Below, in pieces: positions 6,655-62,402 of a stretch of DNA of 64,000 nucleotides (position 1 is the stretch's first letter; each line of letters starts with the position of its first letter). Under the pieces are notes generated by a model. The model saw only the letters and a list, made by a program, of their open reading frames with translations, had not been told where the DNA came from and did no database searches. The DNA lies in the NCBI RefSeq assembly GCF_002234675.1, contig NC_019866.2, forward strand, positions 8,771,261 through 8,835,260, given 5' to 3'. Source of the stretch: Oryzias latipes (taxonomy: Eukaryota; Chordata; Actinopteri; Beloniformes; Adrianichthyidae). Both the position numbers and the translations under genes were made by a program.

Positions 6655-16970
<10,316 letters not shown>

Positions 16971-17024
16971 GAGACAACATCTGTTTGGAACACTTTGGCA
17001 GAGGTCATAAAATATGAACCAGCT

Positions 17025-17261
17025 GTTGATTTGTCCTCAAACATTGTCTTTTAATAAATAGTTAGCTAACTAAAAAATCTTTCTGCCTCATGTTGTTGTT
17101 GTGGTTTTTCATGGATTTTAAACATTCCCTTTTTGAAAAAAAATAGAACTTTATTCAAAATTATGTTCATTCATTAAAAAACACATGACTTCCAGCTCCA
17201 GGACAAGATCGACTTCTTTTTGGCTGAAACTATTTCACACCTCATATCTTGTCTTGGTAGA
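17025..17261 (+). repeat. Left arm of host-derived inverted duplication (gene B 3' flank)
   Basis: This stretch holds the end of the gene B 3' UTR and about 200 bases of flank. Its reverse complement is found at 25363-25611 with only a few differences, on the other side of the Tc1 element. A direct-orientation relative without the Tc1 insertion is at 57618-57880, so this is the native orientation. Confidence 0.9.
17053..17058 (+). promoter_or_regulatory. Poly(A) signal of gene B
   Basis: AATAAA lies 82 bases after the TGA stop of gene B. The 3' UTR sequence around it is also present as an inverted copy near 25565-25611, and as orphan direct copies near 52286 and 57618. Confidence 0.8.
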
Positions 17262-17534
17262 TACAGTGGTATGAGAAAGTTTGGGCACCCCTGATAATTT
17301 TCAAGATTTTTCTTCATAAATCATTGATTGTTCAGATCATCAATTTCAGTTAAATATATCATATAGCAGATGAACACAGTGATATTTGAGAAGTGAAATG
17401 AAGTTTATTGGATGTAAAGAAACTGTGCAATAATTTTTCAAACACAAATAAGAAGGTGCTTAAATTTGGGCACCCCAACAGAAACATGCCATCAATATTT
17501 AGTAGATCCTCTTTTTGCAGAAATGACAGCCTCC

Positions 17535-18425
17535 TAAAATATTATTTCACAACCCCAATGCATCAGTCAGAACTAATAGACAGACTTCCAACAGGTTTTT
17601 TCCTTGGAAGAGGAACCAGACAGGGTTGCCTACTCTTTTCCTCTTTTTTTTGCTATATTTATTGAGCCTCTAGCTGCAGCAATACGACAGAATGAGAGCA
17701 TTAAAGGAATTAAAACCAAACACAGCCATCATAAAATTAGTCTCTATGCAGATGACATATTACTGTTTTTAAACAATTCCCATTCTGTAAATGAAACAGC
17801 AACAATTATTAATGAATTCTCCTCCATGTCTGACTACTCAATTAATTGGAATAAATCTGTTTTATTACCACTGAACTGTAATGCGGAGCAAAAACTCATA
17901 ATACCAGTCAAATCAGGCAATGTCAAATATTTAGGTATTTAGTTTTCCCCCAAATGAACCCAGAATTTTTGCCCAGAACTGCTGCAGCTAAACCACACCG
18001 CATTACTTAAAAAGCCTACAGGACGATCTAACCCGCTGGGTCAACCTGCCTCTGTCCCTCAAGGGAAAGGTAGCCACGGTTTAAATGAAAATCTTTCCCA
18101 AAGTTAATTGTCTTTTCTCAATGATCCCCACACAACCGCCACTAAAATGGTTCAAAACATTAGACTCATCCATTATAGGCTTTTTATGGAACAATAAACC
18201 TGCAAGAATTAGTCTAAAATCTTTATAAACTGCAAAAAGGTGTGGAGGCTTTGAATGACCTAACTCCTACAAATACTTTCTTGCAAATAGATTACAATAC
18301 ATCTTAAAATGCTTAAAAAAATAATTCAGAAACCAACTCACGGTTAGACTGAGAACAGATGTTATGTGGAAAGATCAACCTGTCAGATATGCCTTTTATT
18401 AGCCAATCATTTAAAAAACAGGACT
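17535..18425 (+). pseudogene. LINE reverse transcriptase fragment
   Basis: About 300 codons of reverse transcriptase resemblance, spread over two frames (a shift near 17640). Seen are the GTRQGC motif at about 17610-17635 and the catalytic YADDILLF motif at about 17745-17770, followed by SDYSINWNKS and KYLGI, all typical of non-LTR reverse transcriptases. An in-frame stop follows near 17940. The reading then decays until the nested insertion. Confidence 0.8.
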
Positions 18426-20267
18426 TACCCCCTTCCTCATATGACCTCATATTAGGGTGAGGGGGTGGGGGGTCTAGCCTGCGATGCGCCTTGGGGGGGG
18501 GCTACTTGGCAGTGGCCCCCCTCCTATGGTTGCCGTATGGAGTGGGCCCCCCCTCTTTCGGTTTTATTTGCACCTTAGACATGTAGGGTCCTTGGTAGGG
18601 GGGGTGCTTGGACATCACTGCAAGCAAGCAGCAGATGTCCTCCTGGCACCCTACCCGCCAATTTTAACCGCACCTTAGACATTTAGGGCCCCTTGGTGTG
18701 GAGGGTGAGGGGACATCACTGTGAGTAATCAGGAGATGTCCCCTTAGTGCCCTACTCGCCAATTTTAACTGCACCCCCCTTAGTACACACACCCCTCCCC
18801 CTTCAATATATACATTCAAACATAAACACACACACATGCACACAAACACCCTCTCAAACACCCATACACGCACACACATTTTACAAGGAAGGTGGGACCT
18901 GGGTCCATCTGTCCCCTACCCCTTCCCTGGTGGGGGGTGCGGGCCCCTTGGCGATGGCGGCCGTGTCCCTTGGGTGCCGGCTCCCTGGGCCCGGCGGTGC
19001 TCTCTCCGCACGGTGGGGGGGTTCATATTACACCTGAGCCGGGGGTGTTCGTGTCCCTGGGGGGAGGGTCCTGGTCCTTGCCCCTGGGCGCTGGGCCCCG
19101 CCAAACTTCCAACATGGCCGAGCATGGTCGGGCCATATTTATAACACCCCTTGTGGGCCGCCCTTTTTTCCCCGGGGTTCCCCCCTCCTGGGCGGGGGCG
19201 GCGGGCCCCTGCCTTGCTCCTACCTGGACCAACCGTGGGCCGGGTGGGTGGCTGCCTGGAGTGCGGAGCGGGTCTCCCTTGGGGGGTCCTGGCTCGTACC
19301 TGGGGTCGGGGCGGGGGGATGCCCGGAACTCCTGGGTGGTGGTGGGGTGCTCGTCTGGGGCTGTGGGCGTCCCTCTCCGGTGGGGCCCTGCGTTGGGCTC
19401 TTCCGGCGCGGCGGGGGGGCTGCTTTCCTGGCTGGGCTGGGGCGGCGCTCTCTTTCCCTCCGCGCCTCCCTGCTCTCTGGCTCTGGGGGCCTCGCGGCGG
19501 TCCTGCTGGCCCTGGCCTGGGTGGCGGTCTTGGTCGCCCGGGGGGCGGTTGTTCCCTGCCTGTTCCCGTATGGCGTTGGGGGAATTCCGGCTGCCGCTGC
19601 TGCTGCGGCGGGGGTCTGGGTGTGGGGGTGGCTGGGCGCTCCTCCTCCTTCTTTTCACATTCCACCATCCATTTTAGAAGAACATAAACACTCACTTGAG
19701 CACAGGTGTTAGCTCACCTTTGCACTAATAGTTTGCATGATTGAATGAATGAAAGATTTCACACTAGTTGGTTTAAAGGCATAGGTATGCGTTCGTGAAC
19801 ACTATCTGTTTTGTGTACATGTTGACATGTGGACATTCTTGCAGCTAGCAGGTGTGTTTATAATATTTGAGTGTGTGTGAACAGGCCCCGCCCTTTTTGT
19901 ACTACATTTGAACCGTACCATAATGATTAACAACCAGTAAACTTGTTGCTTTATGCTGCTTCATGGTCTTACCCCCCTTCCCCTCCTATTATCACCCTCC
20001 TACCCCCCCCTCTCTCTAACGTCCCTCTCTCTTCTTTCCCTCTTTCCTTTTCCGTCCGGTCCAACACCAAAGATTTTCAAACATGATTGAAATGAATAAA
20101 GTTTGGCCTCAATTACAAAAGGGGGTTATTCAGACATACCTTTGGTTTGTCTGAAGATTAATAACCCCTCTTGTTAAAATAAAATATGTCCAACACAAGA
20201 GGCCCTCAGCTCTCATCTGTTTGCCTAGCTGTTGGACAGGACAAGTTTAAAAAAACAAAAAACAAAA
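18426..20267 (+). mobile_element. Second LINE 3' end nested in the first
   Basis: The insert is flanked by a perfect 13-bp duplication (aaaaaacaggact at 18413-18425 and 20268-20280) and ends in an A-rich tail. Its 3' 600 bases closely match the 3' end of the host LINE (compare 19675-20245 with 22425-23000). Its 5' part is a G-rich or C-rich low-complexity tract (18455-19640). It is therefore a 5'-truncated copy of the same or a sister LINE family. Confidence 0.85.
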
Positions 20268-20280
20268 AAAAAACAGGACT

Positions 20281-21720
20281 GCTTCCAAAGTATTAATATA
20301 AACGCCACTTTAACAGCCTGGTGGGAATGTCTCAAAATATCAAACCGTGCAAAATTACACCCATCTGGAACAAACCCGACATCCTCATAAACAAAAAAAT
20401 TGATACACTTCCTAGCTTGTCGAGGTGGGGGCGTAACATTACCTGAGCCCTAAATTATTGATAGAAATTTCATAACACCCCAGGAACTAAAAGACAAACA
20501 TGGAATTAATAACTTCTTGGAATATCAGCAACTTAAATCTGTTATTACTAAAAAGTTCAAATACAAAGACAACTGTCGTTATTTTCGAGACTTCGAGACA
20601 GACCCATATGCTGGAACCCGGAAGGAAAACAGGAGAGATTTATGGTAAGTAATTTGGTTTATTTTCTTGCAGGATGTTTCCCAAGGACATGGGTCTTCGG
20701 CTTGATGCAGCAGGTGAGTAGCTCATGACGTGGCGTGGCTGGAGGGTTTCTCTGTTTGCTGTGAAGGCTGAGCAGGCATGAACAGCAGACGTGGCGAGTG
20801 TGGTTTGTTTGGACAGGTACGGAGGTAATCCCAGGTAACACTCATGGTGAAATAATCCTGGAAGTGAGGTGTAAAACAAAGTTACTTGACAAGAATAATT
20901 CAATGGCTAAAACATGAGTGACCTGACAAGCACCATGGAGGAGCAACAAACTGGCAATGAATGCTGGAGCTGGATCTCCTTAAGACTGCTGGAGGTTGAT
21001 GAGTTGAGTGAATACAGCTGGGAATCCTCAGGAGCAGAGTAGAGAGGGGAGGGGGAGGAGAGCTGCCAGAGGCACCATGACAACAACGATTTAAAGCCAC
21101 CAGAAGTAGTTACCTCTCTGATTCATTTTTCAATGAATAAAACTCTCTCCAAAATATACAAACTCTTGTGCAACCTAGATGATTATATTCCACTTCCGAA
21201 AACAAAATGTGATGCAGATTTGAGCATCAGCACAGATGAAAGCTTCTGGTCAGAACTTTGTCTAAACAAACTTGCAGCTAATCCAGTTCAAAACTCCCCA
21301 CAGGATTTATTAAACTGGACAGATGATGTTCAAGATGGGTCTCAGTAACTCAGACATTTGTGAGCACTGTGATAGTAATCTACCCGACAGTAACATGCAT
21401 GCACTGTGGTTCTGCAAACCTGTCTAGGCTCTCTGGCAACAGGTATGTGCCGATCTATCAGTCTGGCTTAAAGTTTCAATCACGGCTTCACGGTCACTTT
21501 GCGTGCTTGGTGACATGAGTGCCATCAATAAAGAAGGAGGATTAGTATCTATCATTTTCATGACTTTTTGTATTGCTAAAAAAACAATTTTAATAAACTG
21601 GAAAAACAAGAAAAATATTAATGTAAGTCAATCTGCTGTTTGATCATATCAGCTTGGAAAAAAATGTCAGCCCAAAGTTCAAGTAACCTTGAAAGAATTC
21701 AGTCTCTCTGGTCTCCCAAC
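20281..21720 (+). pseudogene. LINE ORF2 C-terminal remnants
   Basis: After the nested copy, resemblance to the L1-type ORF2 C-terminus resumes (around 20400-20580, 21133-21348 and 21345-21640) in changing frames with stops. Short conserved pieces include FITPQELKDK near 20468 and NWKNK near 21597. The stretch 20620-21100 does not look like ORF2 and may be a further insertion that I cannot name. Confidence 0.6.
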
Positions 21721-24087
21721 TCCATGACTTCGGGGGTGGGGGGCCTGGTCGTCGCTGCTTCTTGTCTGTCTGCCGTGGTTAGGGGGTGGGGGTCGGGGCC
21801 TTCCGGTGCCTTATGGGGGGCAGTGGGGACTCCGTTAGTTGGGTGGTCGGGTCCTGTGCCGGGGTGGGGCGGGCTGGGATGATGCGCGGTCTTCCGGGCT
21901 TGGTGTGTGTGTGTGTGTGTGTGTGTGTGGGGGGGTGTTGAGTGGTGGTCTGGCTTGGCTTGGGGGGTGGTCTTTTTGACTGTCCTGGGGGGTTGGCGTG
22001 GGGCCCTGCTTGGGGGGGGGGGGGGGGGTCCCAGTGGTGCTGTATGGGCTGCACCTGGGGCTGGGGTCACCCCTTAGCCAGGGAAGGAGTGTATTGTATT
22101 GGTGTGTATCAGTACGGGACCTTGGAGGTTTGACGGGTCGGGGTCTCCTCTGAGGCAACCAGCGGTCGCCCCGGCTGGTTGGCTGCCTCGGTCCCCTCGT
22201 GGCCTGACCAGAGCTCTCCCACGGGTGGCGCCTGGGGGCTGGGTCCTGGACTTGCTCCGGGGGGGTGGCGCTTTCTGGCTCCTCTTTCTATGTGTGGGGT
22301 GGGTGGTGTGGGGCCTGGGGGGTCGGCGCTTCGGGGGATGGGACCCCTGGGCTGGGGGGAACTGGGCCCTATGCTGGGGGGGCTGGGGGACGGCGGGGAC
22401 AGTCTACCAGCTGTCATCCGTTTTAGAGGAACATGGACACTCACTTTAGCACAGGTGTTAGCTCACCTTTGCACTAATATTTTGCGTGATTGAATGAAAT
22501 ATTTCACACTAGTTGGTTTGAAGGCATAAGTATGCGTGTGAGAACAATATTTGTATTGTGTACATGTTGACATGTGAACATTTTTGGAGCCAACAGGTAT
22601 GCTTATAGCATTTGAGTGTGTGTGTGGACAGGCCCCGCCCTTATAAACTTGTATTACATCGGAACCTAACTGTAATGATTCTAACCATCCAGACACTTTT
22701 TGCTTCATGCTGCTTCCTGGTTTTACCCCCCCCCCCCCTTTCTATAATCACCCTCCTATCCTCCCCTCTCTAACATCCCCCTATCTTCTTCCCTCCTTTC
22801 CTTTTCCGTCCGGTCCAACACAAAAGATTTTCAAATATGATTTAAAATGAAAAAAGTTTGGCCTCGATTACAAAAGGTGTTTATTCCGATATACCTCTGG
22901 TTTGTCAGAAGGGTCACAACCCCTGTTGTTAAAATAAAATATGTCCAACACAAGAGACCTTCAGCTCTCATCTGTTTGCAAAGCTATTGGACAGGACAAG
23001 TCCAAAAAAAAAATACAAAGAAAAAAGACAAAATAAGAAATGTCAGCCTCCACTCGCTTCCTATAGCTTCCAATAAGAGTCTGGATTCTGGTTGAAGGTA
23101 TTTTGGACCATTTCTCTTTGCAAAACATCTCCAGTTAAGTCAGACTTGATGGCTTCCGAGCATGGACAGCTCGCTTTAAATCACACCACAGATTTTCAAT
23201 AATATTCAGGTCTGGGGACTGAGATGGCCATTCCAGAACATTGTACTTGTTCCCCTGCATGAATGCCTTTGTAGAATTAGAGCAGTGTTTAGGATCATTG
23301 TCTTGTTGAAATATCTAGCCCGTTGCAACTTAAACTTTGTCATTGATTCTTGAACATTGTTTGTAAGAATCTGCTGATACTGACTGGAGTCCATGCAACC
23401 TTCAACTTTGACAAGATTTCCAGTACCTGCACTGGCCACACAGCCCCAAAGCATGATGGAACCGCCACCAAATTTTACTGTGGGTGGTAAATATTTGTCT
23501 TGGAATGCTGTGTTCTTTGTTCGCCAGGCATACCGCCCCTTGTTATGTCCAAAGAACTCCTTTTTAGTTTCACTGGTCCACAGCACCTTATTCCAAAATG
23601 AAGCTGGCTTATCCAAATGTGCTTTAGCATACGTCAAGTGACTCTGTTTGTGGCATGTGCACAGAAAAGGCTTCTTCCACATTACTCTTCCATACAGCAT
23701 CTCTTTGTGCAAAGTGCGCTGAATGGTTAAACGATGCACAGTGACACCATCTACAGCCAGATCACGTTGTAGGTCTTTGGAGCTGGTCTGTGGGTTGAGT
23801 TTGATTGTTCTCACCATCCTTCACCTCTGCCTATCTGAGATTTTTCTGGACCGGCCACTCCGGGGCTTTGCTTGAACTGTGCTTGTGGTCTTCCATTTTC
23901 TCACTATATTCCTCACAGTGGAAATTGTCAGCTGAAATCTCTTAGCAAGCTTTTTGCATCCTTCAACTAAACTATAATGTTGAACAATCTTTGTTTTCAG
24001 GTCATCTGACAGCTGTTTTGAGTTTCCCATGTTGACAGTCATCAGAGAAGATGCAAAGAGGAGAAAAACTTGCTCTTGGCCACCTTA

Positions 24088-25029
24088 CAGTTTTTCTCAG
24101 TCGCTTTGGTACAATTCTCAGATCAGAATTGAAGTTTGCAAAACGTGTGTGCATTTCTCAGAACAATTTGTACAAACAGCAAAACACTATGGATTTCTTG
24201 CAAAAGCCTGTAACTTGCTCAAAATCTTTAGTTCATCTCTCAAAACTAAGTCTTTATGTCATTGAACATGTCAGTGCCATCAGAATGTCAAGTCCTTGTG
24301 TCACTGTCTACGAACAAAACAGTCAAATTACTTAGTCATGTTGTCAATATAACTGTGTACTTTAAAGGGAGGTTCTGATGTAAACTATGGCTAAAGTTTT
24401 GATGACAATTATTGTAAAATGTAAGTTACACCTTTTTTGTTTGATTCCAAGAGACTGGACAAGATTCACATTTACACTTTTATTGTTCATATTGTAATTT
24501 GTTGACAGACCATGTCATACCAACATAGAAAAAACCCACTGCAAACAGTAACACAAAGGGAAAAAAAATATAGGACAATATTCTGTACAACAGTACAGGC
24601 AGTGCAGTAGGAATTGGTGTGGTCTTCCTACACCTCTTGTCGTTCCTGTATGTTAGGCCACAAATTCTCATCCACATCACAGCGAATATCCTCTCTTGCA
24701 ATGCAGTGAAATATGTTTGTCACATTATGACAACTTGGTCAACCATTTTGCTGTTAATGATTTATACGATGAACTAATGACTAGGTGTTTTGAGGATTAA
24801 GACTATTGCACAGTGAACTATATAATACATTTTGATCAACATGACATAAACAATTGATAATGTAGCAAAGAGCAGAGAATTGTACATAATCATTTGCATG
24901 GATGTACCAAAGCAATTGCAACTTGTTCAAAGAAGTGAGAAACTGCTTATATGATGTGAAGATTGAACAAATAGTTTTGGGAATTTCATTCTGATCTGAG
25001 AATTGTACTAAAGCGACTGAGAAAAACTG
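24088..25029. mobile_element. MITE with TA duplication inside the Tc1 element
   Basis: The inverted termini cagtttttctcagtcgcttt (24088 onward) and their reverse complement (ending at 25029) extend for about 40 bases. Both ends are flanked by TA (24086-24087 and 25030-25031). The interior of about 860 bases has no recognisable transposase, so this is a non-autonomous mariner-like element. It sits just upstream of the Tc1 transposase start. Confidence 0.8.
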
Positions 25030-25362
25030 TAAATACCTCTTCTCATGATTGGCTTCACATGTGTATATAGGATAAGGATCAATGAGTTTGTGAAACGAAT
25101 TTTGTGTTTTAATAATTATTGCTAAAGGTAGTCAAATCAATAAAACAGGGGTGCCCAAATTTACGCACCTGCCTATTTTTGTTTAAGTAATTATTGCACA
25201 GTTTCTTTAAATCCAACAAACTTCATTTCCCTTCTTAAATATCATTGTGTTTATATGCTATATGATCTATTTAACTGAAATTGATGATCCGAACAACCAA
25301 TGATTTATGAAGAAAAATCTTGAAAATTATCAGGGGTGCCCAAACTTTCTCATACCACTGTA

Positions 25363-25611
25363 TCTACCAAGACAAGATATGAGGTGTGAAATAGTTTCAG
25401 CCAAAAAGAAGTCGATCTTGTCCTGGAGCTGGAAGTCATGTGTTTTTTAATGAATGAACATAATTTTGAATAAAGTTCTATTTTTTTTTCAAAAAGGGAA
25501 TGTTTAAAATTCATGAAAAACAACAACAACAACTTGAGGCAGAAAGATTTTTTAGTTAGCTAACTGTTTATTAAAAGACAATGTTTGAAGACAAATCAAC
25601 AGCTGGTTCAA
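25363..25611 (-). repeat. Right arm of host-derived inverted duplication
   Basis: Reverse complement of 17025-17261, including the gene B poly(A) region, with only a few mismatches. The arm ends in a short reiterated motif (three copies of an agctggtt-type unit, 25599-25632) that joins an isolated Tc1 terminus. Confidence 0.9.
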
Positions 25612-25632
25612 AGCTGGTTGAACAGCTGGTTC

Positions 25633-25660
25633 GGGGTGCCCAAACATTCTCATACCACTG
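25633..25660 (-). mobile_element. Solo Tc1 terminus
   Basis: 28 bases matching the end of the Tc1 terminal repeat (ggggtgcccaaacattctca, then taccactg), followed by TA at 25661-25662. No other part of an element is attached. Confidence 0.75.
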
Positions 25661-25662
25661 TA

Positions 25663-25838
<176 letters not shown>

Positions 25839-26937
25839 GTCTTTAATGATCCCTGAGGAAATAAAAAAGAGCAATGAATGGATTTGATAGATTAAAAATC
25901 AATGGATTAAATATTTTTTTTAAATCAGTGGGTTACATTAGTTAGAAGGAATTGCTTCTTATATGCTCTGTCAGAGAGTTTTATTGCCTGATGCCATGAG
26001 GAACAAATGATTTCTTCAGTCTGTCTGTGGAGCAGCGCTCGGATAGCAGTAATTCAGGGGATGTAAGTGATTCCTCGTGATGGCCCTACGTCAGAGGTGG
26101 GCAATTCCAGGCCTCGAGGGCCGGTGTGTCTGCACGATTACCAGATTGTTTTGCCTTACTAATGGCTGAATACCTGGTTCAGCTGTGTCCAGCCAATCAG
26201 AACACTCCAGAGCAGGGTATGTTGGAAAACATGCTGGAATGAGGCACTCAGTGCCCACCTGGTCAGAGTTTTCTGTTCTGCCACCTCCTCCACAAGAGCC
26301 AGCTTCAGTCCCACCACAAGCTCTTGATGATCTTGTTACCCAGGCAGATGTTGTTCTTGCTGGCAATGCACCAGCACACAGCAGTGTAGAGGAGAGCACT
26401 CTCCACCACCGACAGATAAAATGCATGCGGGAGTTTTGTGCAGATGTCAAATGAGTGCAGCTTACGGAGAAAGTACAGCCTGGATTGGCCCCTCCTGTAA
26501 AGCTGGTCTATGTTAGTAGTCCTGTCCAGCTTGTGGTCCAACACAACCCCCAGGTACTTGTGGGTCTGTACCATCTCCACGCTTTCTCCCTCTATGTGCA
26601 TGGGGTGAGGTGTTCGAGCTTTCCTTCTGAAGTCCCGAACCATCTCCTTGGTTCTCTAGACGTTCAGCTAAAGCTGGTTCTCCCTCCACCAGGCCAAAAA
26701 GTCCTCCACCAGCCACCTGTACTCCCTCTCCTCTTCCCATTTGATGTAGGCCACAATAGCTGTATCCTCCATGGACTTCTGCATGTGGCAGGTCGCGCAG
26801 CGAAAGTCGGACGTATGCAGAGTGAAGAGAAGAGGAGACGGCACTGACCCCTGCGGTGCCGTACACTGAAGCTGAGGGTACTGGAGAAGTATGCCCCCAT
26901 CTGGGCATATTGCTGCCTGATAGTTGACCATTCTCAT
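25839..26937 (-). pseudogene. CR1/L2/Rex-type LINE reverse transcriptase fragment
   Basis: The minus strand encodes the C-terminal part of a fish non-LTR reverse transcriptase. A PQGSVPSPLLF block lies near 26840, and THKYLGVVLDHKLD near 26530-26570. A segment rich in aromatic residues follows (LYFLRKLHSF). Frames change and stops occur. The 3' end (tctttaatgatccctgagg on the + strand) abuts the GATA/GACA repeat. The matching position in D2 (57881-58040) keeps only the two ends of this LINE, so D2 has an internal deletion. Confidence 0.75.
26092..26240. repeat. Short interspersed repeat inserted in the LINE
   Basis: The stretch starting cagaggtgggcaattccagg resembles a short dispersed fish DNA-transposon end. 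It interrupts the LINE coding resemblance. Its borders are approximate and no target duplication was established. Confidence 0.5.
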
Positions 26938-27174
26938 TTATTAAACAACTGATGTGATTTTATACAGTAAAACTTATTAAATTGAGTCAAGTCAGCCACA
27001 CATTGCATCTAAAATAATTTAATATAAAAATGTCTGCATGAAAATCTTTGCTATTTTACTTCTCAAACTGGTGGTGTCACTGCTTTAACCAGATATTTAT
27101 ATTTAATGTTGCAACATAAAAATCAACACTTGAACCCAGAAAATATGTAATCTTTCTTAAACAAGACACAGAGA

Positions 27175-27741
27175 TATTTTCTTCAACAAGTTTTAATAAG
27201 TAAAAATAGCAATTAATAATCAGGAATGTGACAGATGTTTTCCACACGTTTTTTCTTTCCATCAGACCACTACCCAGAGAATTCAAAAACTTTGAAGAAA
27301 TAGCCTGGGATAGTTTCCTGTGAACAAAAGATAAAAGTGTCATTAAAATGTATTGTTTACAATTGCCAAAACTGCATATTTGACCAAGATTCTTAATTTA
27401 GTTTGTCATAATGTGCAAGCCAACATATTTGTTTATTAATGTTTTAAAGGATCAGTTTTTAAAAATAATATAAAAATGTATTCAAACTGTTAAAGTTGCA
27501 ACAGGTGAGGCAGATATTTTAAATATGTTTGTGTGTTACGCTGTGTCACAGTTAATTGAGCATGCCACATTACATCTCCCAAGGTGAAAATCATTTCAGA
27601 GCTGTCAGCAGGCAACAATTTTACTACAAGACAAACTGCACCAAAAAACAACAAAACAATGTAGGGTCACTTAAAGTCTTCAAACACTTACTTTTCAGGC
27701 ACTAAGGACCTCAAATTCATGAAGTTGTAACAGGACTGCAT
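27175..27741 (-). ncRNA. Putative antisense spliced transcript, D0 copy
   Basis: On the minus strand a 50-base exon (27741-27692) has a good acceptor (ctccatggcag) and a strong donor (gtaagtg). A second exon begins at 27317 after cttttgttcacag and reaches an ATTAAA signal at 27197-27192. D1 and D2 keep the same splice signals and have AATAAA there. Reading frames differ and stop early between copies, so a non-coding RNA is more likely than a protein gene. This is inference; no transcript evidence is available. Confidence 0.3.
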
Positions 27742-27821
27742 CTGCCATGGAGTAAAAGAAGTAGAGCTGTGTTAAAAACTGGGGCAACACATTACTGGAG
27801 AAATTAGCCCAACTACGAGGG

Positions 27822-28090
27822 CTCACAGACCCCTTTCAAATGCTGTGGAAGATCATCTGTCATCATTTTATATCCCTGAAACATACAGCAACACTGGCTG
27901 ACAGTGTCCTACTTTTGATTATGCAGTCAAACTGCCCCAGTCTGAAAAATGTAGATGGTCATCAAATAAATTCAACAGGCAGCTGCAAAACATGATATCT
28001 CCCCCACAGCACTGCTCAATCCTGTTTAGAAGGTTAAGAGGACTGGTGTCCTGTTTCTGTAAATGCCAGCCAATTCTTCTAGTAAACAAC
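27822..28090. other. Conserved block of unknown nature, D0 copy
   Basis: About 270 bases are strongly conserved at 27822-28090, 53262-53540 and 58932-59210. Conservation is greater than in the flanking AT-rich sequence. Open frames exist on both strands, but none resembles a protein I recognise. It may be an upstream exon of the putative antisense transcript or an old transposon piece. Confidence 0.4.
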
Positions 28091-28309
28091 TTACACACAT
28101 ATTTGAAGCACTCTGCTTTCCACTGCTTTTTTTCTTTCTTTCTATACATACATAAATATGCATATATATATATATATACATAGCCTGTACATAAACGTAA
28201 AGTGTAATTTTTACAAATGCTGTTGCAAAACTATTATTTAAAGAAAACAATTGAAAATGTATTATTTTTATCTCTTTTTTTGACTGTACTATGTCACCTA
28301 CTATTTTAA

Positions 28310-28430
28310 AGAGTTGTGTTTGGCCGCGGAACCGCAATCAGTGTGTGAATGTGAATGGGTTAATGGATATGTGACTGTAAAGCGCTTTGGGCCTCCAAGG
28401 AATGTAGAAGGGCCCTATACATTTACCATT
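28310..28430 (+). repeat. Short interspersed repeat, D0 copy
   Basis: Contains the motif gtaaagcgctttgggcct and ends in atttaccatttacc. This is a repeat tail common in fish genomes. Related copies at 53975-54100 and 59645-59820 occupy the same position in D1 and D2, so the insertion predates the segment duplication. Confidence 0.7.
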
Positions 28431-34871: not shown

Positions 34872-46318
<11,447 letters not shown>

Positions 46319-51640: not shown

Positions 51641-52285
51641 CCCTGGATTTAATGACTGGTGGCATGCCAGTTCTTTGATCATCTCACATGACAATAGCTC
51701 GGATCATAACCACTGCATGAAAACGTAGAAAGAACTAGTTGTAAGAATAAAAAAGCTTAAGCTTAGCAAAATATTCCTAAGATCATTTATGGCTCAATAT
51801 CAGCTATCTGGTTTAGTAGTGTTATGTATAAACCACACCATTGCTGAGAAACTAACATGAGGATTTGATTGATGACTTTGCCTGCATTAAGGCACATTTT
51901 TGGTTTGCTACTAAGAGAAGCAGACCAATTTTAATTCAATTTTATTTATCTAACCCAATATTACAACAATAGTTGTCTCAATGGGCTTCAAGCTTTAAAT
52001 TGGACTAGTTGGATGTAATTTTTTTTAATCTTATAATGAGGTCATTTTAAACCTCAAGCAAACATGCGTGATGTTATACTTGAAAGAGTTATAGAACATT
52101 CCTACAAGCTTTAAGAATTTACAAGCATCTAGTTGCACTTTTGATCATTTTTATTTGTTGAATATTTGAACAATAAAGTAACCATAATAAGCAATTGTAC
52201 ATTTCAGTGTCGTATTTGGGGAGCAGCGAGGGGCGCAACTGGTGTGGCTCACCCAGGGCGTCATTTCATCCAGAACCACCACTCG

Positions 52286-52405
52286 TCATAAAATATGAAC
52301 CAACTATTGATTTGTCCTCAAAAATTGTCTTTTTAAAAAACAGGTTGCTAACTAAAAATTATTTCTGTGTCATGTTGGTTTGTTCATGAATTTTAAACAT
52401 TCTCA
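52286..52405 (+). pseudogene. Orphan MYH 3' UTR flank, D1
   Basis: From cataaaatatgaacc onward it follows the gene B 3' UTR and flank (17008-17130). No MYH exon stands before it. The AATAAA is lost (tttttaaaaaacag). It reads as the tail end of a deleted MYH copy. Confidence 0.8.
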
Positions 52406-52674
52406 TCTTGGTGTGCTTATAAACAGAAAAACGTATTAAATTTAGTCAACATTTAGATTATAATACGTTGCATTTATGTAAGTACTTCAGCCAGACATTG
52501 CATCTAAAATAATTTAATGTAAAAATGTCTGCATGAAAATGTTTGCAATTTTACTTATCATACTGGTGGTGTAACTGCTTTACCAGACATGTATATTTAA
52601 TGTTGCATCACAAAAATCAACATTTGAACTCAGAAGTATCTAATAAAAACAAAAACACAGAGATGTTTTCCTCA

Positions 52675-56621: not shown

Positions 56622-56908
56622 AATTTTATTTATATAACCCAATATTACGACAATAGTTGTTTCAATGGGCTTCAAACTTTAAGTTGGACTAGTTGTATAT
56701 CATTTTTTTAAATCTCATAACGAGGTCATTTTAAACCTCAAGCAAACATGTATGATGTTATCCTTGAAAGAGTTATTCTTACTTTTAGAATAGAACAGTC
56801 CTACAAGCTGTAAGAATTTAGAAGCATCTAGTTGCACTTTTGATCATTTTAATTTGTTAAATGTTTGAACAATAAAGAAACCATAATAAGCAATTTTACA
56901 TTTCAGTG

Positions 56909-57531
56909 ATTCAAAAAGGTTCATTGTGTCTATAAATTATACTGCGTACTTAAATTATTTTTTATCAGACACTGGTTTGTTTGTTTTTTATAAAACGTAC
57001 CGACATGTTTCAGTGGAATACATTCCGCCTTCGTCAGGGTCGTTATCATCTGGTGGTGTGTGACGTCTTTAAAAACAGATGATTGTGACCGAGGCGGAGT
57101 CACCTGTCAAACTTTGACAAGTGACTCCGCCCCTTGATGTCCGTTTTTGCTGGAGGATGTTGCTCCAGGTGTGGAAGAGCAGGAAGGCCCCCTCATCCCG
57201 GTTTATGGAAGTGTGGGCTCGCTTTTGGATCTCCACCGCCTCCATGATCCATCTGTGGAATCTGTTGTATCAGTGTGGAGGACTTTGGCCTTTTCCCAGT
57301 CCATGATGTGGTTTTCTTGTTTGCAGTGGTCCGTTATGGCTGATTTCATGTTTTCTTGTACTGCCGGTTGTCGTCTTGCTCTTGTTACTATTTTATTTGT
57401 TTCCTTTTCGCACTTTTCCTTTTCCCACCCTAACGAAGGCGGAAGGTATTCCACCGAAACGAAACATGTCGGTACCTTTTATAAAAAACAAACAAACCAG
57501 TGTCTCTTAAAAAATAATTTAAGCACGCTAT
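56909..57531 (-). mobile_element. Penelope-like element fragment
   Basis: It is flanked by an 11-bp duplication (acatttcagtg at 56898-56908 and 57532-57542). D1 carries the empty site (one copy at 52199-52209). The minus strand, 57454-57203 and onward, encodes a GIY-YIG endonuclease C-terminal region of Penelope-like retroelements (SAITDHCKQENHIMDW). Inverted copies of an accgacatgtttc motif at both ends (56999 and 57463 regions) recall the inverted terminal structures of this class. Only the 3' part of the ORF is present. Confidence 0.8.
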
Positions 57532-57617
57532 ACATTTCAGTGTCGTAATTGGGGAGCACCGAGGGGCGCTACTGGTGTGGCTCACCCAGGGAGTCATTTG
57601 TGCCAGAACCGCCACTG

Positions 57618-57880
57618 GTCATAAAATATGAACCAACTATTGATTTGTCCTCAAACATTGACTTTTTAATAGACAGGTAGCTAACAAACAATTATTTCTG
57701 TGTCATTTTTTTTGTTCATGATTTTTAAACATTCTCTTTCTTAAAAAAATAGATCTTTAGTCAAGATTATGTTTTTTCATAAAAAAACACAACTTCCAGC
57801 TCCAGGACAAGGTCCCCCCTTGACAAAAATTGACTTCTGCACAACTTTTTTGGTTGAAACAATTTCACACCTAATATCTT
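57618..57880 (+). pseudogene. Orphan MYH 3' UTR flank, D2
   Basis: Follows the gene B 3' UTR and flank (17008-17250) for about 260 bases up to atatcttg, with no coding exon before it. At its end, where gene B's copy has the Tc1 insertion, this copy continues into a GGAT microsatellite and the LINE end. It therefore shows the pre-insertion arrangement. Confidence 0.85.
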
Positions 57881-57939
57881 GGATGGATGGATGGATGGAT
57901 GGATGGATGGATGGATGAATGGATAGATGGATGGATGGA
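57881..57939. repeat. (GGAT)n microsatellite
   Basis: About 59 bases of ggat repeats with few interruptions. It occupies the position of the GATA/GACA repeat in D0. Confidence 0.95.
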
Positions 57940-58344
57940 ACAAAAGATAAAATACGTTTACAAATACGTTGACATGGATGGAGTCTTTAATAGCCCCTTA
58001 AGAAATTTCAATCCCCATCCGGATATGTTGCTGCCTGACAGTTGGCCATTCTCATTTATTAGATACCTGGTGTGCTTATAAACAGAAAAAGTATATAGAG
58101 AAAAACGTATTAAATTTAGTCAACATGTAGATTATAATACGCTGCATTTATGTAAGTATTTTAGCCACAGATTACATCTAAACTAATTTCTTATAAAAAA
58201 TGACTGCATGAAAATGTTTGCAATTTTACTTATCATACTGGTGGTGTAACTGCTTTACCAGACATGTATATTTAATGTTGCATCCCGAAAATCAACATTT
58301 GAACTCAGAAATATCTAATAAAAAAAACACAGAGATGTTTTCCT

Positions 58345-59899: not shown

Positions 59900-62402
59900 T
59901 GGTCAGTGTTCATTTCGAGTATCTGGTTTCTGGCCTTTTTCAATCACAACTGCTGCTGCGATGTTTCAAAGTCTTATCAATGACCTTCCTTAACGATATG
60001 ATAAACAAATTTGTGGTTTTGTACCTTGATGACATTTTGATATTCTACCCAGATCTCGACACCCACGTGCAGCACATCAGAGCCATTTTACACAGCCTTC
60101 TCGAGAACCAGCTGTACTACCCAAAAAATGCAAGTTCCACGCCACTCAGACCAAGTTTCTTGTCCACGTGATTACCCCTGGGACAATGCAAATGGTTAAG
60201 GTTAAAGCCGTTCTTGCGTTGCCTGTCACTTCTGGATGTTAACAGTTAAAGCGCATCCTGGGGTTTGCAAATTTCGACAGGCATTTCATGCGAGGCTTCA
60301 ATGGCATGGTTGCACCCCTTCACAGACTCACCTTGGCTAAGGTATGTTTTGTCTGGGATGAGGGAGCAAATAAGGCGTTTACTGAGCTGAAAAGACGTTT
60401 TTCTGCAGCTCCTATCCTGACTCGGCCTGACTTCTCCAAACAGCTCATTGTGGAGGTGGATGCGTCTGAGTCTGGAGTGGGGGCAGTTTTGTCTCAGAGA
60501 GCGTCTGTCAATAAAGTTCATCCTGCAAGATCACTCCTGCTGAGAGAAACTACAACATAGGGAACAGAAAGCTGCTGGCAGTAAAATTAGCCTTGGAGGA
60601 GTGGCGTCACTGGTTGGAAGGGGCTAACTAGGTATTTCTGATTTGGAAAAATCATTAAAAGCTGGAATACATTCAAACAGCCAAAAGACTTAACCCAAGC
60701 CAGGCCAGATGGCCCCTGTTTTTCGACAGGTTCAATTTCTCCCTCTTCTACTGGCCGGGCAGTAAAATTTTCAAGCCCGGAGTTTCAGTGAGAGAGGGAA
60801 TCTAAAGATTTTACTGCAGCTGCCACCATTGTTACTCCTCATCTTGTGCTGGGAGCTTCTTGATGGGCCTTGGAACGCAAGGTCAAAGCTTCTGTTCCTG
60901 ATGTGACTACCATTCTTGTAGGATGTCCTTCTGACTGCCTGTTTGTTCCTCCCTCTCTTTGTCCTGCACTTTTCAAGTGGGGTCACTCTTCTCTGTTAGC
61001 TTGCCATCCTCTAGTGCTGAGGACTGCGCTCCTAGTGGCTCAGAGGTTTTGGTGGCCCATCATGTCCTCGTACATTAGGGCTTTTGTGCCCTCATGCCCT
61101 GTGTGTCCAAGTGTCAAGGTATCCAGAAAGCCACCCACTGGTTTCCTATAACCTGTGCCCTACAAACCTCGGTCCCATATTACAATGGACTTTAATACTG
61201 GGTTACCCAACTCAGAAGGTAACACTGTTATCCAAACGATCATAGACAGGTTCTCCAAACTGGTTCATGCTGTGCATTTGCGTAAAATGCCAAGGAGTCA
61301 TCCAAGGAGTTGGCTGTTTTATCACTAAGCATGTGTTTTGTTCACATGGCCTTCCGTGAAATATCACTTTGGATCAAGGATCGCAGTTTTTTGCCACCTT
61401 TTCGAGAGAATTCTGCAAGCACTTTGTCTTTTCAGCAGTCCTGGGCTGAAATTCACATAACACCCTCCAAAATTCTTCAGGATATTCCCCCTTTCAAGCA
61501 GCCTACGGTTATCAGCCACTCCTTTTTCCCCACCAGGAACAATCAGCTTCTACCTCTGGTCCTGCTGCATTTGTGAGGCATTGTTGGTGTACGTGGAGCA
61601 GATATCGACGCCAGCTCTGGAAAACCAGGAGAGATTCAGTGGCATCATAGGTCAACTGTTCCTGAATACAAGGTAAGAGACGAGTGTGGCTCTCTTCCTC
61701 CGATGTGCCGCCGAAAGGGGGAACAAGGAAGCTGCATCCCTGTTATAGTGGTCCATTCTTTTTTTTTTTTTTTTGGTCCACTCTCAATCACTCGGATCAT
61801 TAACCCCATGGCTGTCAAATTGGAACTTCAGAAAAGCTTGTAGATCCACCCGGTCTTTCATGTCTGTAAACTGAGAAAGATGGTCCCCTTAGCCCCACTG
61901 CAAGGTCTTCTCCAGTGCCCTGTTTTGTGGATGCGGGTCAGCTTATTTTGTTAGCCGCCTTTTTGCCTCTAGGAGGGTTGGTCGGAGTGTCCAGGACCTT
62001 GTTGATTGGGAGGGTTATGGCCCTGCAAATCGTCAATGGGTTCCAGAGAGTCATTTTCCGGCCCAGGACCTGATCAATTGATTCCACCCGGACCACTCTG
62101 ACCACCCTCGTATGTCTAGGAGCCAGACTTTGTGAAAGGGGTCATGTTATAGGTTGCCCCCTAGTGATGCTGTTAGGGCCTATTCTTTTGCTGGTTGGCT
62201 GTGGCCTCTCACGAATTGGTCACAGCTGCCTGCAATATCCAGTCTAGCTTCCTTATTTTAAGGACTGTTCATTCTGTGTTTGGTTATGGAGCATCTTTTA
62301 TGCTGTCGCTTATGTTTGGCATTTTGAATAAATCTTTGAAACCTTCTGAATGTGTTATAGTCTTCCTGCTCCTGGGTTTATCCTCCCTGACTAACCACAA
62401 CA
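59900..62402 (+). mobile_element. gypsy remnant, D2 copy with full 3' LTR
   Basis: It begins within reverse transcriptase (YLDD near 60028). RNase H-like sequence (60360-60500), integrase (about 60870-61330) and a chromodomain-like stretch (about 61930-62040) follow. The 3' LTR is 62144-62402 (tgttataggttgcccc to gactaaccacaaca), complete from TG to CA. Internal stops and frame changes make it inactive. Confidence 0.8.

Follow-up and report, generated by a model that had tools for sequence, protein, structure and literature searches.

An inverted copy of the host flank inside the split right end of a Tc1 element in a myosin gene cluster of Oryzias latipes

DNA transposons of the Sleeping Beauty type are about 1.6 kb long and end in inverted/direct repeats (IR/DRs) of about 230 bp (PMC8151067, available text). 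The pieces of a single transposon, bounded by terminal inverted repeats (TIRs), can also come to enclose host sequence: the available text of the survey of animal Pack-TIRs (Tan et al. 2021; PMC8277862) reports 370 cases, 115 of them TcMariner, with 160 of 281 sources located within 15 kb. As for inverted copying during repair, short inverted insertions have been described in yeast in which one end arises by fold-back synthesis and the other by end joining (PMC11724301, in the part accessible), and inverted repeats proximal to a break divert repair to fold-backs or to sister-chromatid annealing (accessible parts of PMC6103520; also PMC10622511). In a yeast mutant with long single-stranded DNA, repeats 30 kb apart still interact (PMC10164571, likewise in part). 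Here we describe a Tc1 element in the muscle-myosin (MYH) gene cluster of Oryzias latipes that is bracketed by inverted copies of its own left host flank and has lost the continuity of its right end. The analysed stretch of 64,000 nucleotides (nt), C8:8771261-8835260, is called the window, and positions below are those of the window unless a contig is given. A literature search, outside which most subscription papers lay, turned up no published case in which a Tc1 element had captured its own flank in inverted form.

Self-alignment of the window showed that 17015-17476 and 25148-25610 are inverted copies of each other (463 columns, 95.03% identity, E 0), in each of which MYH 3′ flank (about 247 bases) adjoins a Tc1 terminal repeat. 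This was the only strong inverted pair at the locus, and the pattern exceeds chance by far. The proposal of a first-pass annotation, made from the letters of the stretch, that a Tc1 lies between inverted flank copies was thereby confirmed; the inverted arms it delimited are real, with the corrections that the right arm reaches 25610 and that its left counterpart starts at 17015. Along the plus strand, the order is the SEE-stop end of an MYH gene, flank, TA, Tc1, TA, inverted flank, 22 nt, a 28-nt Tc1 tip, TA and a GATA microsatellite. The last coding exons of the upstream gene occupy 16683-16970 (plus strand; the SEE-stop motif of the tail at 16959); its 43-amino-acid tail matches myosin-7 and myosin-4 chains in PDB (best E 2.4e-15), and the gene is assigned to the sarcomeric myosin heavy chains. 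The host part of the left arm (17015-17261, plus; AATAAA at 17053-17058), which matches 25363-25610 in inverted orientation, leads to the left TA target site (17262-17263, plus), and the whole Tc1 interval, inner right tip included, follows at 17264-25360. To the right of it lie a TA that is the left target site copied in inverted orientation (25361-25362, plus), the right arm with the inverted host flank (25363-25610, minus), the junction insert of 22 nt (25611-25632, plus), a 28-nt tip read as the severed outer part of the original right end of the Tc1 (25633-25660, minus), the original right TA target duplication (25661-25662, plus) and the GATA/GACA microsatellite (25663-25838, plus). The three TA dinucleotides and the limits of the Tc1 interval were read directly in the sequence. 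The right arm is 97.8% identical to the left over 277 columns; relative to 17015-17266 it carries five substitutions and one indel in 252 aligned positions.

The element itself, with TA on either side (17262-17263 and 25661-25662), has a net length of 1636 bp without its nested inserts, most of its 8 kb being foreign. Its TIRs are 213 nt each (left, 17264-17476, plus; right, 25148-25360, minus), and the core TTTGGGCACCCC recurs at offsets 16 and 201 in both ends, so named outer (left end, 17264-17291) and inner (to 17476). Transposase remnants are found in two separate minus-strand open frames at 23206-24084, with the domains HTH_Tnp_Tc3_2 (E 4.2e-15) and the Sleeping Beauty HTH_SB (E 2.5e-12) above cut-off, and the whole is classed as one Sleeping Beauty-type (IR/DR) Tc1. 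It shares with the elements described in the available text of PMC8151067 a TA target, a length of 1.6 kb, the HTH_SB domain and long TIRs (213 nt, versus about 230 bp in that text) that each hold two repeated cores, yet differs from them in that the transposase frames are broken, insertions are nested and the right end is split.

A query of flank plus tip was searched against the 734-Mb genome (25 contigs; counts of repeats are lower bounds) and gave at least 33 matches. Flank is present in eight of them (both arms and six paralogues), all on C8 at 8.788-8.933 Mb, inside 150 kb of a single MYH cluster. The remaining 25 cover the tip and little flank: in 24 the match begins no earlier than query position 234 (four flank bases at most), and in one, on C7, it begins at position 220 (18 flank bases, 87%). 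As flank-holders among the matches listed are confined to the C8 MYH cluster, the arm is no widespread transposon at that sensitivity; the flank was rejected as a dispersed transposon, which the first-pass annotation had named as a finding that would overturn its reading. Likewise rejected was an origin of the inverted arm from another MYH paralogue, given the exact Tc1 joint common to both arms and the identity of 97.8%, versus 74-81% for the window paralogues. Genome-wide, the next best match holding most of the flank reached 76% among the matches listed, as against 97.8% for the left arm.

At the six paralogous flank loci (L003-L008, about 3 kb each, of which L004 and L007 are the window copies at 57.6 and 52.3 kb), no match to the left Tc1 TIR was found. 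The flank runs directly into a GATG microsatellite at three of them (L003, L004 and L006), L005 has the MYH tail and flank without the microsatellite, and L007 and L008 match a shorter part of the flank. Within the window, the paralogous empty site D2 (57617-57950, plus; also delimited as 57617-57881) has flank and then microsatellite without Tc1, and a second flank fragment without Tc1 lies at 52285-52410 (plus). When the window flank is joined to the sequence right of the solo tip, from 25661 onward, it aligns with D2 across the join (74.6%, 334 columns), the microsatellite thus being the neighbour of the flank before insertion; 44 nt lie beyond the join, all of them microsatellite, with more collinear matches from 26.9 kb onward. 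D2 is followed by sequence paralogous to 26992 onward, and parts of 26890-28316 have paralogues downstream of the flank in six of six loci; from the order of these paralogous blocks, the stretch would belong to the following MYH copy, as its upstream region or 5′ portion. MYH tail exons were found in the window only at 2495, 16683 and 46020, and none precedes D2 or the 52-kb copy in this search. D2 is therefore a paralogous intergenic unit and not another 3′ untranslated region, so that its earlier use as the ancestral order holds for the succession of flank and microsatellite without Tc1; the 52-kb copy, too, shows how the site was arranged before insertion. Intergenic MYH units that lack preceding tail exons, read as partial tandem duplications, extend over 51938-52520 and 56622-58189.

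The two flank copies share the exact Tc1 joint, and the duplication hence came after the insertion. Moreover, the flank arms differ at six of 252 positions (17015-17266) and the TIRs at 17 of 150 inner positions (64-213), a contrast (Fisher P 0.0005) that assumes similar mutation rates; the duplication of the flank thus seems to be the later event, in an element that had already aged since its insertion. For the polarity of these changes, 58 distinct Tc1 ends were available in the fetched loci, of which three from the element itself were set aside, 17 were left-type, 16 right-type and 22 untypable. All 17 inner-TIR differences are a change on one side versus the majority of the 33 typed ends (10 on the left, 7 on the right), 11 of them being seen in none of the 33 other ends and six in one to three. 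The flank differences, polarised by the paralogues, are left-derived at 17059 and 17114 and right-derived at 17036 and 17091, with one substitution and the indel not polarised. Substitutions on both arms indicate that the arms evolved separately after duplication, which speaks against an assembly or library artefact, such as a fold-back read or misjoined haplotypes. Palindromes are a known hazard in assembly, and the present structure is one; however, an artefact would be expected to give near-identical arms, hardly with a templated insert, whereas these arms bear separate, paralogue-polarised substitutions. We consider such an origin highly improbable.

How the second copy of the flank arose is constrained by the joints. 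The inner tip copy (25333-25360) equals the left tip exactly, and the solo tip (25633-25660) has a single change relative to it, at tip position 15. The inner side of the solo tip meets the arm and its outer side meets the TA and microsatellite; since the inner side faces the arm, the solo tip reads as the extreme 28 bases of this element's own right end, split off from the rest, and the cap is not a second Tc1 end as had been claimed. The right TIR is accordingly divided, with its inner part up to base 29 on one side and bases 1-28 on the other, and the outermost 28 nt now found on the inner right TIR (25333-25360) would be a copy from the left end. Immediately inside this presumed break, left and right TIRs are perfectly identical over 35 nt, and it is there, within the inverted TIRs, that the copy joins. 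At the far joint (25610/25611), neither a TA nor a complete Tc1 end is found, and the 22-nt insert next to it holds 12 nt identical to the last bases of the arm (a match of at least 11 arose in 2 of 3000 shuffles).

Such joints bear first on aberrant transposition, which the first-pass annotation had offered among its mechanisms: hybrid-element or sister-chromatid transposition would use ends on two chromatids, insert next door and leave inverted flanks. Sister-chromatid transposition of Ac/Ds can yield flanking inverted duplications (PMC3744419, available text), and transposase supplied in trans is conceivable given the many perfect tips in other family copies (40 among the matches listed, two of them the element's own). 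This route would predict a complete end and a target duplication at the far joint, whereas the arm is followed there, with no TA at the joint, by the 22-nt insert and then by a 28-nt tip that points away; furthermore, the inner joint sits exactly on the original TA, and the event looks younger than the insertion, less firmly so if the arms have been converted. Aberrant transposition is therefore improbable. The same joints bear on fork stalling and template switching or microhomology-mediated break-induced replication (FoSTeS/MMBIR), in which a fork would stall in the TIR, jump to the left TIR on the opposite strand, copy the flank and jump back. It would give the same product, as a sub-form of fold-back copying, and fork switching has been proposed for multicopy Pack-TIRs by Tan et al. 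(PMC8277862, available text); yet the templated 22-nt insert and the lack of clear microhomology at the return joint resemble end joining more, and we rate this form as rather unlikely.

The best explanation is probably that the right TIR broke or stalled a fork and that fold-back on the left TIR, outward copying and error-prone rejoining followed. The target of the single Tc1 was a TA that separated the MYH 3′ flank from the GATA microsatellite; later, a break or fork stall would have occurred in the right TIR, about 28 nt from its tip, and the exposed 3′ end would have annealed to the element's own left TIR, the same sequence inverted, on the same or the sister chromatid. Outward synthesis by a polymerase would then have taken in the 28-nt left tip, the TA next to it and some 247 nt of the MYH flank. 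On release, the copy may have slipped on its AGCTGGTT-like end, generating the 22-nt templated insert, and would have been joined to the far side of the break, where the original 28-nt tip was still present together with its TA and the microsatellite. This sequence of events is favoured because one break accounts for both joints with nothing lost, because the 35 nt of perfect TIR identity lie just where priming is needed, and because the solo tip has its inner side toward the arm and the insert contains the 12-nt arm copy; it is further favoured by the age contrast (6/252 versus 17/150) and by the absence of the TIR from the six paralogous loci. Among the mechanisms listed in the first-pass annotation, an inverted duplication after insertion by template switching or hairpin joining is thus best supported, while aberrant transposition is disfavoured by the missing full end, the missing TA and the tip orientation. 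For the mobilisation or antisense transcription of the MYH poly(A) region that the same annotation considered, no sign appeared in the features analysed. What is unusual about this apparent repair accident, otherwise of an ordinary kind, is its form.

Several observations weigh against the proposed course or loosen its dating. All six flank differences fall in the outer 122 nt, with none in the 190 nt near and inside the tip (17137-17326 versus 25298-25488; simulated P 0.025), a weak hint that arm-to-arm conversion may have followed. If it did, the age of the event has to be read from the outer flank (122 nt), where the contrast shrinks to 6/122 versus 17/150 (P 0.08). Identity of the two ends over the outer 63 nt of the TIR, at first taken as proof of copying or overwriting, was dropped as such after the comparison with control elements: the three with both ends typed show 5/63, 0/63 and 5/62 outer-TIR differences, the 0/63 being that of L027, an element in which no such arm was found. 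Outer ends are generally more conserved (pairwise difference 0.073, versus 0.140 for inner parts, among the 33 ends, which were chosen for good tips), and the left TIR carries no change in 63 outer positions and 10 in 150 inner ones. Left and right family ends were also dropped as template markers; the end-type majorities differ at one position only (70, mixed C/T), so that the copied end is not provable from markers. Moreover, no clear microhomology was found at the joint to the 28-nt tip, and in the data, which are the sequence of one assembly, no allele without the inverted arm was seen.

Compared with Pack-TIRs as described in the available text of PMC8277862, the locus is alike in having a few hundred host bases between pieces of one TcMariner element, a source close by and retained TA duplications; it is also consistent with repair after insertion, by a mechanism close to gap filling. 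In the terms of that survey, which looked for 100-5000 bp of sequence free of transposable elements (TEs) between two element pieces, each with at least 10 bp of terminus, the locus has 270 nt (25363-25632) between the right TIR and the 28-nt right tip, and where an unambiguous parental copy of at least 90% was sought, it has one of 97.8%. The survey, however, dropped parental copies with a TE less than 100 bp away as a control for segmental duplications, and here the parental flank abuts the same Tc1, so a TE lies within that distance and the locus would not be filed as a Pack-TIR in the sense of that text. It differs further in that the host sequence comes from just outside the element itself and was taken up, tip included, in inverted orientation, and in that Pack-TIR breakpoints, as given there, lean to the element interior, whereas the present one lies 28 nt from the tip.

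The likeness to yeast fold-back insertions (PMC11724301, accessible part) is that neighbouring DNA was copied inverted, with one end made by copying and the other by end joining. Those insertions are mostly about 5-34 bp and primed by microhomology; here the copy is about 277 nt and priming would be by the TIRs. As in the inverted duplications of PMC10622511 and PMC6103520, in so far as their available text describes them, inverted repeats beside a break would lead to inverted copying or annealing. The events reported there end dicentric or large, whereas here synthesis would have ended about 250 nt into the flank, with rejoining of the chromosome in place.

The occurrence of comparable structures elsewhere in the genome was surveyed by a pattern search for the tip, in which at least 134 tips with up to two mismatches were counted and 100 listed. 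In the 30 loci fetched with 1.5 kb per side, the survey reaches arms within that distance. The flank comparison took in 56 distinct tips of the fetched loci, each with 60 nt of flank or more; the window's inner right tip, an identical row that was taken out, would bring the number to 57. Besides the window pair, shared flank was found in five tip pairs. In three of these it extends as far as the tip (an inverted pair on C3 with 61 nt of flank, and two direct pairs on C17); in L020/L024 and L025/L054 it does not. A search within loci over 63 tip instances (overlapping loci counted twice) gave eight rows, among which the C3 case alone lies in register with a tip; the rows of L044 and L045 match over 24 and 36 nt and stop short of it. 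On C3, 32578886-32578984 and 32583090-32583188 (L039 2387-2485 and 6591-6689) are inverted copies of 99 nt at 100% identity, 4.1 kb apart, each consisting of 38 nt of Tc1 tip and 61 nt of that tip's own outside flank. Since this piece sits at a distance of about 1 kb from the element, it resembles a templated insertion that had a Tc1 end and the adjoining flank as its template, the joints being judged by inspection; it is kin in kind to the window case, with another structure. The C17 tip pairs (C17:11257084/11336258 and C17:22034031/22044224), whose flanks are direct and identical at 99.3% and 100% over 300 nt, are identified as segmental duplications carrying Tc1 ends.

Further features of the locus concern the nested inserts and the neighbouring sequence. 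A nested retroelement block (17519-23051, plus) is bounded by a 16-nt target duplication (17519-17534/23036-23051, one mismatch), a length reached by one in about 2000 random pairs; it holds RVT_1 homology at 17580-17942 (E 2e-9) and repeated pieces at 19666-20273 and 22415-23026 (84%). A second insert, TA-bounded and with inverted ends by self-alignment and direct reading, spans 24086-25031 (unstranded) and is probably akin to a miniature inverted-repeat transposable element. Beside the microsatellite, a minus-strand open frame at 26305-26655 resembles a non-long-terminal-repeat (non-LTR) reverse transcriptase, a putative label, and the GATA microsatellite may be its 3′ tail; the open frame at 60243-60560 looks like a putative fragment of an LTR retrotransposon. 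Among the MYH genes, 14087-14828 and 43337-44079 are 98.3% identical and 1-134 and 43946-44079 are 99.3% identical, versus 81-94% for the remaining alignments between the gene pair, and these high-identity stretches between the two genes suggest recent gene conversion.

By its mechanism, inverted self-flank capture by a Tc1 element would stand close to the gap filling known from Pack-TIRs. With their long IR/DR ends, Tc1 elements could conceivably be habitual copiers of their own flanks, breaks in one end being mended from the other, although we hold this as a doubtful generalization. If true, dead Tc1 elements would repeatedly drag inverted pieces of neighbouring genes into their own boundaries, and self-flank copies, as a class, would escape any survey from which TE-linked sources are excluded; because such sources are set aside in PMC8277862, as its available text has it, the count of gene capture by transposons given there may be low. 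The locus provides a readable record of an ageing DNA transposon that took in host DNA without transposing: insertion and ageing, and then what would have been a break, inverted copying and rejoining, by which the poly(A) region of an MYH gene is now present as an inverted copy within transposon boundaries.

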